Origin: Halanaerobiales bacterium
GTDB lineage: Bacteria > Bacillota_F > Halanaerobiia > Halanaerobiales > DTU029
Direction of reading: 5' to 3'
Assembly (NCBI GenBank): GCA_016278415.1
Contig: JADQBV010000283.1
Location: 1 to 17,624, forward strand
Length of the DNA stretch: 17,624 bases
The notes under the pieces were generated by a model, which saw only the letters and a list, made by a program, of their open reading frames with translations, was not told where the DNA came from and searched no databases. A program made the position numbers and the translations under genes. Shown here piece after piece: positions 4,379 to 14,140 of the stretch; the stretch's first letter is position 1, and every line of letters starts with the position of its first letter.

Positions 4379-4635
4379 CCTTAACCCTCCTCTTTGGTAC
4401 ATCGTACTATTCTTCTTCAATCATCCTTTAGAATGCTAGAGTCCTATATCTTAAAGTCGTCTTTGGCAGTATATGCCGCTATTTTTTTAGATAACTACAA
4501 CAAAAATCCAGTAGAATAAAAACCCTATCTATATTAACCCTTATTTGTATTATTACCATTCTATCTGTTTTTAAACCCATATTGTATAAAACTCCCCTTG
4601 TGTGGCAGAATATATCATAAAGGGAGGTGTTTTGT

Positions 4636-4830
4636 TTGCCACAAATCAAATGTTCTGTTGACAACTGTAGCTATTGGGATACTGGCAATATTTGTGGAGC
4701 TGACGCAATTGAGGTAGGTAAAAACTTTTTTGGTAATGATGATATGGAGGCTGGTGCTCTAGGGGCTGACCCTTCTATGTCAAATCAAACTAAATGTAAC
4801 ACATTTAAACCAGGAAAAAACAAGAAGTAA
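4636..4830 (+). CDS. DUF1540 family small Cys-rich protein
   Basis: A 64-aa protein with the DUF1540 pattern: IKCSVDNCSYWDTGNICGA at the N-terminus (C6, C11, C20) and KCNTFKP at the C-terminus (C56). The four cysteines probably bind a metal. DUF1540 proteins are common in spore-forming Bacillota; their function is unsettled. The start is chosen as TTG at 4636, with GGGAGG at 4622-4627 eight bases upstream. The alternative GTG at 4627 overlaps the ribosome site itself. A terminator follows directly, so it is probably its own transcription unit ahead of the LigD ligase gene. A second family member lies at 7978-8232. Confidence 0.88.
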   Translation: MPQIKCSVDNCSYWDTGNICGADAIEVGKNFFGNDDMEAGALGADPSMSNQTKCNTFKPGKNKK

Positions 4831-4842
4831 TAAACACTTTCT

Positions 4843-4870
4843 AAATAGCGGGTCTTAACCCCCGCTATTT
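4843..4870 (+). terminator. Intrinsic terminator after DUF1540 gene
   Basis: AAATAGCGGG (4843-4852) pairs perfectly over 10 bp with CCCGCTATTT (4861-4870) around an 8-base loop, followed by CCTTTATTTAT. It lies 12 bases after the DUF1540 stop and only 42 bases before the ligase ATG, so ligase expression needs read-through or a promoter overlapping this hairpin. Confidence 0.85.
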
Positions 4871-4912
4871 CCTTTATTTATGTTTTATAAAATGACTGGA
4901 GTGCTTAATACT

Positions 4913-5806
4913 ATGTTAGAACCCCCATTAGATCCCATGTTGTTATCAACAAAAGAAAAACCCTTTAACTCTACAGATTATTTGTTTGAAATGAAATGGG
5001 ATGGATATCGTTGTATAACATTTCTTGATGATAAAAAAATCATCTTACAAAGCAGAAATAAGAACGATCTCAGCAATTATTTCCCTGAACTAGCTAATAT
5101 ACAACAATATATTAAGGCTGAAAATGCTGTGTTTGATGGTGAGATATGTTATTTAGACAATATAGGAAAACCTGTCTTCTCAAAACTGCAGGAGCGCTTA
5201 AGGAGTAAGAACAAATCTGATATAAAAAATCCAGTCAATTTAATATTATGGGACCTATTATCTTATAATAATAAGGATATATACTCAAAGCCATTAATCG
5301 AAAGAAAACAAATTCTAGAGGAAATTGTAGCAGATAACAAATCTATACTAGTTCCACCTTATGTAATGACAAAAGGCAAAGAACTATATGAAAAAGCAGA
5401 TTTAGAAGAACTTGAAGGCATAGTAGCAAAAAAAATTGACTCGCCCTATGAGTTTCATAGGAGTAAATACTGGTATAAAATAAAATGCTGGAAATATATT
5501 AATACATACATAGGTGGTTATAGTAAAAATGGAAATAGTCTTGCTGTAGGTATGTTTGATAAGGATAATAATCAATTACTCTACATGGGTAAGGTTAAAA
5601 TATCACTAAGTCAAGAAATGAATGAAGCCCTATTCCGATTTTTCCCATGCATTATTAGTGAAAATTGTCCTTTTAAAGAAATACCTAAGAATAGTGACTT
5701 GTATTGGGTTAGACCAGTAATAAAAACCAAAATAAGATATACAGAACTAAGCAGGCATAATACATTCAGGCACGGCTTTGCAGTTAATATTTTATATGAT
5801 ACTTAA
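4913..5806 (+). CDS. ligD: LigD-type ATP-dependent DNA ligase, stand-alone
   Basis: A 297-aa ATP-dependent ligase of the bacterial NHEJ class. Motif I is EMKWDGYR with the adenylated lysine at K28; motif III is VFDGEI (about 73-78); motif IV is EGIVAKK (168-174); motif V is WYKIKC (187-192). An OB-fold region follows to the C-terminus. It seals double-strand breaks with Ku. Multi-domain LigD proteins fuse ligase, polymerase and nuclease; here only the ligase is present and the polymerase is a separate gene downstream. The ATG at 4913 has GGAG 11 bases upstream and begins MLEPPLDPML, a family-like start. In-frame ATGs at 4880 and 4892 lack a ribosome site but cannot be excluded. Confidence 0.93.
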   Translation: MLEPPLDPMLLSTKEKPFNSTDYLFEMKWDGYRCITFLDDKKIILQSRNKNDLSNYFPELANIQQYIKAENAVFDGEICYLDNIGKPVFSKLQERLRSKNKSDIKNPVNLILWDLLSYNNKDIYSKPLIERKQILEEIVADNKSILVPPYVMTKGKELYEKADLEELEGIVAKKIDSPYEFHRSKYWYKIKCWKYINTYIGGYSKNGNSLAVGMFDKDNNQLLYMGKVKISLSQEMNEALFRFFPCIISENCPFKEIPKNSDLYWVRPVIKTKIRYTELSRHNTFRHGFAVNILYDT

Positions 5807-6056
5807 CAAATCATGTTTCACCGCCCCTTCATTATATACGCAAGGTCGGGCTACTCCAGAGCACCACCAATTTTGACATTAAGGTAGCAGCACTAGGCCA
5901 TCGAGGCCTTCGAAACAAAGTGAGTTTGAAAAGATTTATATTTTATCGAATTTACCTTGTTTTGATTATGGCGAAAGTCAATTTGATTTTTTGTTATTCA
6001 TAGCTTGAAAGACGAGCGCAAAGTTTGAGTTATTAAACATTTAGGAGGAAAAGAGA
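5807..6056. other. Compositionally odd spacer between the two ligD genes
   Basis: No gene is visible here in either direction; the longest start-to-stop frames are under 20 codons. The stretch from about 5820 to 5915 is clearly richer in G and C than its surroundings, unlike ordinary intergenic DNA in this window. It contains AGGCC-ATCGA-GGCCT (5895-5909), a perfect 5-bp-arm hairpin, followed by TTCGAA. Related words CAAAGTGAGTTTGA (around 5917-5930) and CAAAGTTTGAG (around 6019-6029) recur. It could be a dispersed intergenic repeat, a remnant of an inserted element, or a structured RNA. The downstream part carries the AGGAGG site of the polymerase gene. Confidence 0.45.
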
Positions 6057-6953
6057 ATGACATCTTTAGTTGTTGACGAGTTTCAAGTTAAGTTGAGTAA
6101 CCTAGAAAAAATCTTTTGGCCAGAACTGGGATATACAAAAGGTGACTTAATAAATTATTATGCAGAAATCTACCCTTATATTGATATCTTTTTAAAAAAT
6201 CGTCCATTATCATTAAAAATCTATCCAGATGGTATAAATGGAAGTTATTTTTTTCAAAAAAATATTCCAGAACACGCTCCCCATTGGCTTAGTAATGCCC
6301 CTATTTACTCTAAACACCGCAAAGAGCCTATAAATTGGGTAATGGTAAATAAGTTATCTGACCTTCTCTGGGTAGCTAATAGTGCTTCTATTGAACTTCA
6401 CAGTTGGTTTTCAACTTTAGATAATCTGGATAATCCTAGTTTTGCCGTTTTTGATCTGGACCCAGGTGAGAATTCCTCTTTTCAGGATGTAATTTCCGTA
6501 GCTTTGTTAATAAAAAGAATAATGGATGAACTGACCATCAAGGCATATCTCAAAACCTCAGGAAAATCAGGCCTCCATATCTATATACCTGTGAAAGAAA
6601 GATATACATATGAACATATAAAAGACTTTTTAAAATCTATAGCCCTAATGGTAATAAAATTGGACTCTAAAATTTCTACTATAGAATGGAGAAAAAAAGA
6701 AAGAGAGGGCAAGGTATATATTGATTATAGGCAAAATGGTCGCGGTAAAACCCTCCCTGTACCATATTCATTACGCCCTACAGATACCGCCACTGTATCA
6801 ACTCCATTAAGCTGGGATGAGTTGTATAAAGAGATAAAACCAACTGACTTTACAATTAATAATATTTTCCAAAGGCTTAATGGCAAAGGTGATCTCTGGT
6901 CAGATATATTTGATAATAAACAGGAATTACCAGACTATTTAATAAGGGTTTAG
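6057..6953 (+). CDS. ligD: LigD-type polymerase (PrimPol/AEP), stand-alone
   Basis: A 298-aa archaeo-eukaryotic primase-family polymerase of the LigD class. It fills gaps and adds (ribo)nucleotides at broken ends before ligation. Visible motifs are the metal-binding FDLDPG (D133, D135), the nucleotide-binding KTSGKSGLHIYIPV (S168, G169, G172, H174) and the third acidic residue D223 in VYIDYRQNGRGKT. The N-terminal VKLSNLEKIFWPELGYTKGD and LSLKIYPDG are typical of the family. The length is normal for a single polymerase domain; no 3'-phosphoesterase domain is encoded here. AGGAGG at 6043-6048 supports the ATG. Its stop is five bases from the stop of the convergent Ku gene. Confidence 0.95.
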   Translation: MTSLVVDEFQVKLSNLEKIFWPELGYTKGDLINYYAEIYPYIDIFLKNRPLSLKIYPDGINGSYFFQKNIPEHAPHWLSNAPIYSKHRKEPINWVMVNKLSDLLWVANSASIELHSWFSTLDNLDNPSFAVFDLDPGENSSFQDVISVALLIKRIMDELTIKAYLKTSGKSGLHIYIPVKERYTYEHIKDFLKSIALMVIKLDSKISTIEWRKKEREGKVYIDYRQNGRGKTLPVPYSLRPTDTATVSTPLSWDELYKEIKPTDFTINNIFQRLNGKGDLWSDIFDNKQELPDYLIRV

Positions 6954-6958
6954 TATAA

Positions 6959-7786
6959 CTATCCGGTTTTTTTAGTTTTCTTTCTAGATTTTTTCTGGCT
7001 TGAAGCCTTCTTTTCACTAGCTTCAACACTTGCTTTTAAACGTTCCATCAAATCAAGAACCTTATTTTCAGGTGTAGCAACGTCTGGAATTTCAACTTCT
7101 TTGCCATCAATTTTCTCTCTAATTATCTTCATTAACTCTTCACGATATTGATCATCATATTTTTCTGGTTTAAATTCAGCCGTCAGATTATTAACTATTT
7201 CTATAGCTAATTTCTCCTCTTTTTCATTCAATTCCAATTTGTCTTCCATCATTTCAATATTTAAGTCAGCAGAAGACTTAACTTCATCTGCAAAAAACAT
7301 AGTCTCCAATGCTAATGTATTATTCATAACCCTAACAACTGCTAAACTCTCTTTATTACGAATTGTTATTTTACTTATAGCCACCTTTTTTGTCTCATCA
7401 AGGGCTTTTTTTAATAACAGATAGGGCTTTTCCCCACCCTGAGCTGGACTAAGATAATATGTCTTAATATAATATACAGGATCAATCTCTTCTAACTTTA
7501 CAAAGTCAACAATATCAATTGTTTTTGTTGATTTAATAGGTATATTATCAAAATCCTCGTCCTTTAGAATAACAAATTTATTGTCCTCGTATTCATATCC
7601 CTTTACCAACTCACTATATTCTACATCAACATCACAAGCAGAACAATGTCTAACCATATTCACAGGGTTTTTGCATTTTTCATGAAGCATTCTAAAACTA
7701 ACATTTTTCTTGCTAGTAGCAGTAGATAACCTTATTGGAACATTTACTAGGCCAAAACTAATGGCACCTTTCCATATTGTTCTCAT
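6959..7786 (-). CDS. ku: Ku homodimeric DNA-end-binding protein
   Basis: A 275-aa bacterial Ku starting MRTIWKGAISFGLVNVPIRL, nearly the family signature. It binds broken DNA ends as a ring-shaped dimer and recruits LigD. A zinc-ribbon-like cluster is seen (H35, C38, C48, C51), as are the core segments VKGYEYED and IDIVDFVKLEEIDP. The C-terminal tail after about residue 250 is rich in lysine (KKASSQKKSRKKTKKTG), as in Ku proteins whose tail contacts DNA or ligase. The start is the ATG at 7786, with GAGGTG six bases upstream; an in-frame longer start at 7816 has no ribosome site. It is convergent with, and almost touches, the LigD polymerase gene. Confidence 0.96.
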   Translation of the reverse strand: MRTIWKGAISFGLVNVPIRLSTATSKKNVSFRMLHEKCKNPVNMVRHCSACDVDVEYSELVKGYEYEDNKFVILKDEDFDNIPIKSTKTIDIVDFVKLEEIDPVYYIKTYYLSPAQGGEKPYLLLKKALDETKKVAISKITIRNKESLAVVRVMNNTLALETMFFADEVKSSADLNIEMMEDKLELNEKEEKLAIEIVNNLTAEFKPEKYDDQYREELMKIIREKIDGKEVEIPDVATPENKVLDLMERLKASVEASEKKASSQKKSRKKTKKTG

Positions 7787-7876
7787 ACATTTCACCTCTA
7801 GATTTATTATTCCCAATATATTTTTAATTACTTAAAAATTTGTTCATAAAAGACTATGGCGATCTTCCTTCATTGG

Positions 7877-7907
7877 TAAAAGCCAGAACTATTATTAGCT
7901 CTGGCTT
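7877..7907 (-). terminator. Terminator of the 72-aa / DUF1540 unit
   Basis: An 8-bp stem AAGCCAGA / TCTGGCTT (7880-7887 with 7900-7907) has an inner CTA/TAG pairing, and on the minus strand runs into TTTT. It lies about 70 bases after the DUF1540 stop and before the Ku leader, ending the upstream minus-strand operon. Confidence 0.65.
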
Positions 7908-7977
7908 AATCTTTCGTGCTTATTTATTTACCTATTTATATTAGTTGCTTATCTATCTTACTTGCTTATCTATCTTG

Positions 7978-8232
7978 TTATTTATATCCTTCTCCCTGCA
8001 TATACTTATCTCGGGGAACGAATGTCTTACAAGCACTTTCATAGCACTCATTTACTGGAGATAATCCTTTTTCACTAACTATTTGATTGGTTTGTTCCAC
8101 ATCCATCTCACTGGATAACTCTTTGGCAAAATCATCACTTACTATTAATATTTTTTCTGCTACACATAAATTTGGTTGTGCCCACCAATTACAATTATCA
8201 ACTGTACAATGAACATGAGATTGTTGTGTAAT
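7978..8232 (-). CDS. DUF1540 family protein with non-canonical ATT start
   Basis: An 84-aa protein of the same family as the one at 4636-4830. The cysteine spacing is identical (C9, C14, C23) in VHCTVDNCNWWAQPNLC, and ESACKTFVP (C68) ends the domain. There is no ATG, GTG or TTG between the preceding in-frame stop and the first cysteine: the frame reads TAA ATA AAG AAG GAG ATT ATA ATT ACA CAA CAA. AAGGAG sits six bases before the second ATT (8232-8230), which would give MTQQSHVHC, a start like that of known DUF1540 proteins. ATT initiation, as in infC, is therefore the best reading; stop-codon read-through from the in-frame upstream gene or a base error are alternatives. A start at M43 would lose three of the cysteines. 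Confidence 0.8.
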   Translation of the reverse strand: MTQQSHVHCTVDNCNWWAQPNLCVAEKILIVSDDFAKELSSEMDVEQTNQIVSEKGLSPVNECYESACKTFVPRDKYMQGEGYK

Positions 8233-8250
8233 TATAATCTCCTTCTTTAT

Positions 8251-8469
8251 TTAATTTTCAAATTCAAGATTGTATAATTCGACACGATAACCTTCTTCAT
8301 CTACTACTTCTATTGTTGCTTCTCGCGGGTTTTGATCATGACTTCGTTTTCTTGATTCAAAAAGTACACGATGCCCTTTATATGGGATTTCACCATATTC
8401 ACTATCCTGGAGTCTACTAAAAATTTCACCGGCAAGGGCATGAGTTATTGCCTTTTCTGTCTCTTCCAT
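8251..8469 (-). CDS. Conserved-looking hypothetical protein, 72 aa
   Basis: A small soluble acidic protein beginning MEETEKAITHALAGEIFSRL. It has an amphipathic N-terminal helix, then a predicted beta-rich part with IPYKGHRVLFESRKR and EATIEVVDEEGYRVELYNL. I do not recognise the family. The ATG at 8469 has AGAGGTGG ending about six bases upstream; an in-frame GTG at 8478 lies inside that site. It is followed at once by the second DUF1540 gene in the same reading frame, separated only by one TAA and 18 bases, so the two are surely cotranscribed and might even be linked by read-through. Its position suggests a shared role with DUF1540, not necessarily with Ku. Confidence 0.7.
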   Translation of the reverse strand: MEETEKAITHALAGEIFSRLQDSEYGEIPYKGHRVLFESRKRSHDQNPREATIEVVDEEGYRVELYNLEFEN

Positions 8470-13253: not shown

Positions 13254-13715
13254 TTATTTCTCTTCTGTGTATAAATACAATTCAAAATTATAATCTTTAT
13301 TAATCCAAAAAGGTAGTCCTAGAAATTTTATGTTATTTGTAATGTCTATCCCGCTCTCTAAAGCCATTGGAGAGCCAATGTTTACACTTCTATCATTTAC
13401 ACTAAAATTAGTAGCTGCATTACCCATTATCATATTACAAAACTCTGATACAGCACTTTTAACCATATCATCAATTTCCTTAACCTCCATTCCTATCATC
13501 GAACCAGCAATTATCTTAATTGATTTATTATTAAAAGACAAAAAACACTTACCATTAAAATCCCCAGTAATAGCTATACTTATAATTACTCCATCTACAT
13601 CATACTGTACTTTTTCTCTAACAAAAAGATCTCCAATTTCAGGTTCTTTTCCCAGAAAACTATTCCCTACTGTATAGACTGCTTCAATAATTGGATTTAT
13701 TTCTTCTACTCTCAT
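13254..13715 (-). CDS. cheX: CheX-like chemotaxis phosphatase
   Basis: A 153-aa CheX/CheC-family protein. The CheX active-site signature ExxN is present as SEFCNMIMGNAATNFS (E91, N94) on the long helix. The earlier beta-strand IISIAITGDFNGKCFLSF and the helix AGSMIGMEVKEID fit the fold. CheX proteins dephosphorylate CheY-P and so reset the flagellar or related chemosensory signal. Only one ExxN motif is present, as in CheX and unlike CheC. A GAGGAAGGTGAT ribosome site precedes the ATG. The gene lies behind a c-di-GMP-I riboswitch and shares its transcript with a 44-aa membrane protein. No che or flagellar genes are adjacent, so it could act on a CheY-like receiver of another pathway. Confidence 0.88.
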   Translation of the reverse strand: MRVEEINPIIEAVYTVGNSFLGKEPEIGDLFVREKVQYDVDGVIISIAITGDFNGKCFLSFNNKSIKIIAGSMIGMEVKEIDDMVKSAVSEFCNMIMGNAATNFSVNDRSVNIGSPMALESGIDITNNIKFLGLPFWINKDYNFELYLYTEEK

Positions 13716-13778: not shown

Positions 13779-13797
13779 GTACAATGTTTTTTACATA

Positions 13798-13876
13798 TTG
13801 CAACCTGGCAGTCATAGATTTATAATCCTTAGACCCATAGCTTTGCGTCCTTATCTTTAAATAAGTTTGCCAAAAA
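13798..13876 (-). ncRNA. Cyclic di-GMP-I (GEMM) riboswitch aptamer
   Basis: Read on the minus strand this contains the class I c-di-GMP aptamer signature. GGCAAAC leads into a hairpin CTTAT...ATAAG with a purine-rich loop, then GGACGCAAAGCTATGGGTCT, a variable arm, and CTATGACTGCCAGGTTGC as the closing 3' part. The conserved GACGCAAAGC and the GCCAGGTTGC receptor segment are the diagnostic parts. It senses the second messenger cyclic di-GMP. It is followed by an intrinsic terminator and then cheX. Because AAAGCTAT belongs to the ligand-stabilised stem and also to the possible antiterminator, I infer an OFF switch: bound ligand frees the terminator. Confidence 0.92.
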
Positions 13877-14140
13877 CAGTATTTAATTTTTTTAGTTTTT
13901 AAAAGCGTAGTCCTTTTTTACTATATATAAAATTCCATACTTAAGACCCAAATTCCTCTATTTTTAGACAAAATAGTACTTTTTTACTAGTGCAATCTGA
14001 TGAATTTGATTTTTAGAAAAAAATATTGCTTGTCTAATTAATGTTTTGAAGAAAAAACTGTAAATCAAATATTCTACTTATTATTATTTCTTTTTAAACA
14101 AATAATAATATTAATAAAAAATATAAGGGGGATAATAAAG
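13877..14140. other. Divergent promoter region, cheX leader / oxidoreductase
   Basis: Intergenic DNA without a gene. On the minus strand TTGGGT followed after about 16 bases by TATATA could drive the riboswitch transcript. On the plus strand TTGAAG (14046-14051), an 18-base spacer and TATTCT (14070-14075) could drive the oxidoreductase gene, whose ribosome site AAGGGGG follows. Both promoters are weak matches. No repeat or structured element beyond these is seen. Confidence 0.35.

Follow-up and report, generated by a model that had tools for sequence, protein, structure and literature searches.

An AUU codon as the very probable start of a DUF1540 gene in Halanaerobiia, with AUU, AUC or AUA at the same position in several orthologues

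The minus-strand DUF1540 gene at 7978..8232 of the window (the whole 17,624-nt stretch of DNA analysed), hereafter DUF1540a, very probably begins at an AUU codon (8230..8232), and AUU, AUC or AUA (collectively AUH) is the predicted start of orthologues in several genera of the class Halanaerobiia. The best explanation as a whole, which is favoured here with some reserve, is that the AUU start is genuine, is discriminated against by IF3 and keeps synthesis of a small cysteine-rich protein low.

The reading frame and its start

The original prediction of an intact 84-codon DUF1540 frame was borne out, as the frame is open from the ATT at 8232 to a TAA at 7980-7978 and its translation matched Pfam DUF1540 (PF07561) at 40.3 bits, above the curated cut-off of 22.1. 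Against the same family DUF1540b (4636..4830, plus strand), the second copy in the window, scored 54.1 bits. The similarity in cysteine spacing claimed for the two copies holds at the family level only, DUF1540b being 28-29% identical to the DUF1540a proteins of two relatives. DUF1540b has a canonical TTG start behind AAGGGAGGTG; the open reading frame list begins it at a GTG at 4627 (plus strand), which lies inside the Shine-Dalgarno sequence (SD), and the TTG at 4636 is the likely start (4627-4638). The DUF1540a protein had no match in NCBIfam, and its structure was poorly predicted by AlphaFold (pLDDT 53).

Downstream of the in-frame TAA of the preceding gene (8251..8253), the claimed absence of ATG, GTG and TTG is true as far as the ATG of codon 43 (8104..8106), which is the first canonical codon after the ATT, lies beyond the first three cysteines and has no detectable SD before it. 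The ATT is preceded at 6 nt by the SD AAGGAG (8239..8244), and the initiating residue is expected to be fMet. To call this SD ideally placed was slightly strong, as the spacing from the end of GGAGG is 5, a value found at 19 of the 479 SD-bearing first-ATG sites of long open reading frames that served as reference, for which the mode is 7. Judged from its sequence, the window gene combines the two properties looked for in an AUH-start gene, namely an in-frame, SD-placed AUH codon and no plausible canonical start. Folding of the window sequence alone gave a weak hairpin covering the SD. At gathering scores no Rfam family matched at the DUF1540a start, the matches in the window being tRNAs and a riboswitch elsewhere; the latter, of the c-di-GMP-I type (13796-13881, minus strand, 76.1 bits), lies upstream of a 153-aa open reading frame (13254-13715, minus strand).

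The codons 5' of Met43 are under purifying selection, with dN of 0.07-0.19 against dS of at least 0.9 or saturated in four pairs involving the window gene, and dN was also well below dS after Met43. This is the opposite of the decay of the frame among orthologues that had been named as evidence against the prediction. A scan of viral contigs found no relative.

Truncation by automated gene callers was confirmed for the window, where the public call, the 42-aa protein P0049 of the 17,624-nt contig, equals DUF1540a from Met43; no full-length call identical to DUF1540a was present among the matches listed in the protein search, and this was the sole truncated call found in a search for such cases. 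The 60-aa relative P0023 is called from an internal codon (MVVSDD...) and is perhaps another caller-truncated non-canonical start. Protein databases would be biased against AUH orthologues if callers allow no start other than ATG, GTG or TTG. DUF1540a illustrates how start-codon rules truncate or misplace conserved small genes.

Start codons across orthologues, neighbours and control genes

Orthologues of DUF1540a were found in 16 of 59 class genomes at E ≤ 1e-20, and 15 of these show the start, the gene in G018 being cut at a contig end. A protein search gave 23 relatives, mostly Halanaerobiales where named (an order to which we take some of the genera to belong), and a genome scan gave 14 loci, eight of them close orthologues. 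Alignment at the proposed start, the check suggested with the original prediction, placed either ATG/TTG or ATT/ATC/ATA at the matching codon throughout, in agreement with ATT as the start. Across the 15 orthologues and the window, the codon is ATG in eight (G001, G053, G050, G058, G052, G059, G019, G017), TTG in two (G057, G049), ATT in three (the window, Soudan_29 (G002) and Natronospora (G021)), ATC in two (Soudan_4 (G004) and Orenia metallireducens (G003)) and ATA in one (Halothermothrix orenii (G043)). AUH thus makes up 6/16 starts and canonical codons 10/16, so that an AUH start is not essential to the gene.

The sequence contexts of the AUH codons differ among these relatives. In Soudan_29 the ATT stands behind AGAAAGGAGGT, with an in-frame TAA 9 nt before it, between SD and ATT, and no canonical codon from that TAA to Met43. 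The SD of Natronospora, Soudan_4, O. metallireducens and H. orenii itself contains a GTG or TTG, 9 nt ahead of the AUH codon; measured from the GGAGG end, this GTG or TTG has a spacing of -2 and the AUH codon one of 7. As the Natronospora gene is one codon longer than the script allowed for, its ATT was read directly from the sequence context; Soudan_4 has an additional ATG 48 nt upstream, which has no SD. At the position of the Met in other proteins, the database entries for H. orenii (MISIPQK...) and Natronospora (MIIITEVK...) have Ile, preceded by an unusual short extension. An M stands at the start position in the database listing of P0001, the closest relative (95% identical to the window protein), and of P0002-P0004, and these near kin probably carry a canonical start codon. 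Since P0001 is so similar to the window protein, the codon appears to shift over short times too.

Upstream of DUF1540a lies p72 (8254..8469, minus strand, ATG start), which encodes a conserved 72-aa protein of unknown function that has no match in Pfam or NCBIfam and is called whole in the public protein set (P0024). It is the first gene of a run in which Ku (TIGR02772; 6959..7786, minus strand, ATG start) follows DUF1540a. This p72-DUF1540a-Ku run lies on one strand and faces genes for LigD polymerase, LigD ligase and DUF1540b in four cases: the window, Natronospora, MAG272 (G019) and G017. In the window (4636-8469), two convergent DUF1540 genes flank Ku and a split LigD, whose ligase and polymerase are separate genes. 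In Soudan_4, neither Ku nor LigD was matched in a 6.3-kb locus that contains p72 and both DUF1540 genes. Across the class p72 is present in 8/59 genomes; four of these are among the 16 DUF1540a carriers, and in the other four no match to DUF1540a reached E ≤ 1e-20.

Among the starts that could be read, AUH was absent from the controls other than infC. SpoVS had 32 matches in 15 genomes, and all 27 starts parsed from 30 fetched loci were ATG (0/27 AUH). Among DUF1540 paralogues, counted at loci fitting the search motif, the 17 distinct starts, that of the window included, were all ATG, GTG or TTG (0/17 AUH). Canonical starts were likewise found in 11/11 homologues outside the class (0 AUH), in 4/4 parsed p72 genes (eight loci looked at) and in 4/4 Ku genes read. 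With kinship ignored, Fisher tests of AUH in DUF1540a gave p = 0.0013 against SpoVS and p = 0.007 against the paralogues. The comparison originally drawn with infC fits this class well: ATT, ATC or ATA occupies the start position, as assigned by the SD and by the usual pattern of infC genes, at 50/50 loci read, from a class in which 57 genomes had an infC match, and some infC leaders have a GTG within the SD, as GAGGTG.

In a tree of infC with 15 rows, one side holds H. orenii (ATA), Soudan_4 (ATC), Soudan_29 (ATT), Natronospora (ATT), G017 (ATG) and G019 (ATG), a group with AUH in 4/6, three different AUH codons, and GTG or TTG in none. The window would belong to this group if its gene order is a guide. 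The other side comprises nine genomes with mostly canonical starts and one ATC, that of O. metallireducens, which is sister to a genome with ATG (G059). At least three changes of the DUF1540a start codon are required on the infC tree and four on the DUF1540a tree, which is a weak tree. As so few changes are needed on the infC tree, the AUH counts and all the Fisher tests overstate independence. This distribution suggests that AUH in DUF1540a is either ancient or the result of repeated gains in one group, with a further change in Orenia.

Genomic background and competing explanations

The background frequency of AUH starts was estimated in seven class genomes (2.0 Mb) by recording, for long frames with no canonical start, which codon follows a strong SD. 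A strict scan gave 20 cases, with ATT in seven, ATA in two and every other codon in at most two (AUH p = 3e-5); these nine AUH frames stand beside 1300 canonical SD-start genes, and about two of the nine are expected by chance. A looser scan gave AUH in 19/50 against 9.3% expected (p = 4e-8). AUH starts in these genomes therefore seem, on sequence grounds, to be real at roughly 0.5-1%. In a 256-kb control scan that combined D. aeronauticus with part of a second genome, AUH was found in 1/3 strict and 3/10 loose cases, too few for the class to be called special for AUH starts.

The nine strict frames, which begin at ATT or ATA, are L084:14079-15302, L169:10128-10841, L096:9320-10087, L096:13046-13759, L102:1619-2104, L119:16667-18028, L117:9217-9750, L130:5587-6540 and L143:14588-14974. 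They encode YpeB, GrpB, BON, an ArsP-like permease, a tyrosine recombinase, a D-alanyl-D-alanine carboxypeptidase-like protein, two B12-methionine-synthase-activation-like proteins from two Orenia genomes (weak matches just under the Pfam cut-off, with orthology judged by similar N-termini) and one protein with no match. The carboxypeptidase-like gene has ATT in one genome and ATG in two Orenia relatives, in noisy alignments of orthologue pairs.

Both scans skip frames with an upstream canonical codon and would miss 4/6 AUH DUF1540a genes, so that the comparison of DUF1540a with this narrower background (p = 5e-9, or 0.002 for three cases) is too favourable. When one rule was applied to both sets, DUF1540a had AUH in 7/16 against 89 AUH beside 1300 canonical genes at SD ≥5 (p = 2e-5), in 6/16 against 53 beside 1300 at SD ≥6 (p = 1e-5) and in 3/16 against 35 beside 1300 at SD ≥7 (p = 0.003), counts that wrongly score G001 (ATG, with a long SD spacing) as AUH at every setting and miss G003 at SD ≥6, with a background inflated by similar false cases. 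AUH is over-represented in DUF1540a relative to all long open reading frames under the same rule.

Three explanations would remove the AUH start from the window or from its relatives. Initiation at the GTG or TTG overlapping the SD in four AUH relatives would agree with the database entries for Natronospora and H. orenii, which begin there; however, only 8 of the 479 reference sites have a spacing of 0 or less, such a codon is absent from the window and from Soudan_29, and the same GTG inside GAGGTG occurs in some infC leaders, leaving this explanation highly unlikely. An error of sequencing or assembly, or a decaying gene, in the window could be argued from the M listed for P0001, but its probability is very slim given AUH at the same codon in five other assemblies, named isolates included, and the purifying selection on the frame. 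Read-through of the TAA at 8253 into a p72-DUF1540a fusion, the alternative raised in the original prediction, is scarcely credible. The window, Natronospora and MAG272 do have the two frames in phase, about 600 nt apart in MAG272, but the frames are out of phase in G017 and Soudan_4, p72 accompanies the gene in only a quarter of its 16 carriers, orthologues have ATG or TTG at the codon in question, and in Soudan_29 a TAA intervenes between SD and ATT.

A more serious competitor accepts AUU as the true start and holds that AUH arose by drift, with no regulatory meaning, in a gene that has a good SD and whose output is low. Consistent with such neutral tolerance are the canonical codon in most orthologues, the M at the start of near kin, the other genes that seemingly have AUH starts in the strict scan, and the ATG in the two Orenia relatives of one of these. 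It is opposed by the excess of DUF1540a over background under the same rule, by the infC-tree group with its three AUH codons and neither GTG nor TTG, and by the canonical starts of all paralogue, SpoVS, p72 and Ku genes read. Retention of AUH by selection for low or IF3-sensitive expression is accordingly no more than tentative as a proposal, since the like-for-like background made a weaker case than the first comparison had, and neutral drift, which is itself a tentative reading, is nearly as likely as selection or regulation.

Proposed regulation and comparison with known systems

IF3 destabilises initiation complexes on non-canonical codons, as is known from infC and from sigR (PMC5472188), and the AUH start of infC itself at all loci read is what would be expected of a class in which IF3-discriminated regulation operates. 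Under the favoured explanation of an IF3-discriminated start, the initiator fMet-tRNA would read the AUU at 8232, positioned by the SD AAGGAG, and discrimination by IF3 against AUH would limit DUF1540a synthesis to a small part of what an AUG start would give. A drop in IF3 activity could then raise synthesis, as in infC, sigR, cvfC1 and ccpN. The lowered yield, the IF3 dependence and the timing of expression are what we infer from this model. The product would be a small cysteine-rich protein, probably needed in low amount during spore formation, for which the AUH start may be retained or re-evolved specifically.

A spore role is likely, on evidence that is confounded by descent. With SpoIVA as a proxy for sporulation, it was present in 16/16 DUF1540a carriers against 11/43 other class genomes (p = 1e-7, confounded by descent), such that among the 59 genomes examined DUF1540a is limited to those bearing SpoIVA. 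CdeA of the C. difficile exosporium contains DUF1540 and resembles DUF1540a in being cysteine-rich and spore-associated, a likeness of family rather than one drawn from comparison of sequences or starts (PMC7677010).

A broader reading, which is unlikely when taken as one whole, would make DUF1540a a second IF3-sensed gene beside infC in spore-forming Halanaerobiia. AUH would be maintained while drifting among AUU, AUC and AUA, a fall of IF3 at starvation or in the forespore would switch on a spore protein, and AUH starts would form a small standing regulatory class overlooked by annotation, with the YpeB, GrpB-like and B12-methionine-synthase-activation-like genes as candidates.

To our knowledge, few bacterial genes have an AUU, AUC or AUA start, and among the papers listed in a literature search made mostly outside subscription papers, none was seen to describe AUH starts for DUF1540 genes or for Halanaerobiia. 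In its AUH codon behind a strong SD, its drift among ATT, ATC and ATA and its SD-embedded GTG at some loci, infC is like DUF1540a; the two differ in that infC has feedback on its own product, whereas DUF1540a would be merely downstream of IF3, and in that AUH is universal at the infC loci read as against 6/16 here. In S. aureus, cvfC1 (AUU) and ccpN (AUA), whose start codons are conserved, are described as being expressed in poor medium at about 10% of the level given by AUG, rising for ccpN to as much as 30% in rich medium (PMC13009471). There, cvfC1 appears as a small gene (61 aa, a putative zinc finger) with AUU behind a strong SD, as in DUF1540a, although both S. aureus genes are unrelated to it and from another clade, have a start described as conserved rather than mixed, and come with expression measurements (PMC13009471). 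The GTC start of Streptomyces sigR is experimentally proven to be IF3-repressed; annotators pick a wrong nearby canonical codon in sigR as in DUF1540a, and the non-canonical start keeps the protein low, as would be the case for DUF1540a, but the codon is not AUH and the product is an oxidative stress regulator (PMC5472188). E. coli pcnB is described as a single gene held low by its AUU start, as proposed for DUF1540a, with a different function (PMC1780047, PMC9410913), and AUU has also been proposed there for lepA in two species (PMC1780047). DUF1540a would join infC, pcnB, cvfC1 and ccpN among the genes with AUH starts, with its regulation a matter of prediction and an unusually good comparative panel, in which the recurrence of AUH in several genera, with canonical sisters and paralogues as natural controls, makes IF3 control beyond its own synthesis testable.
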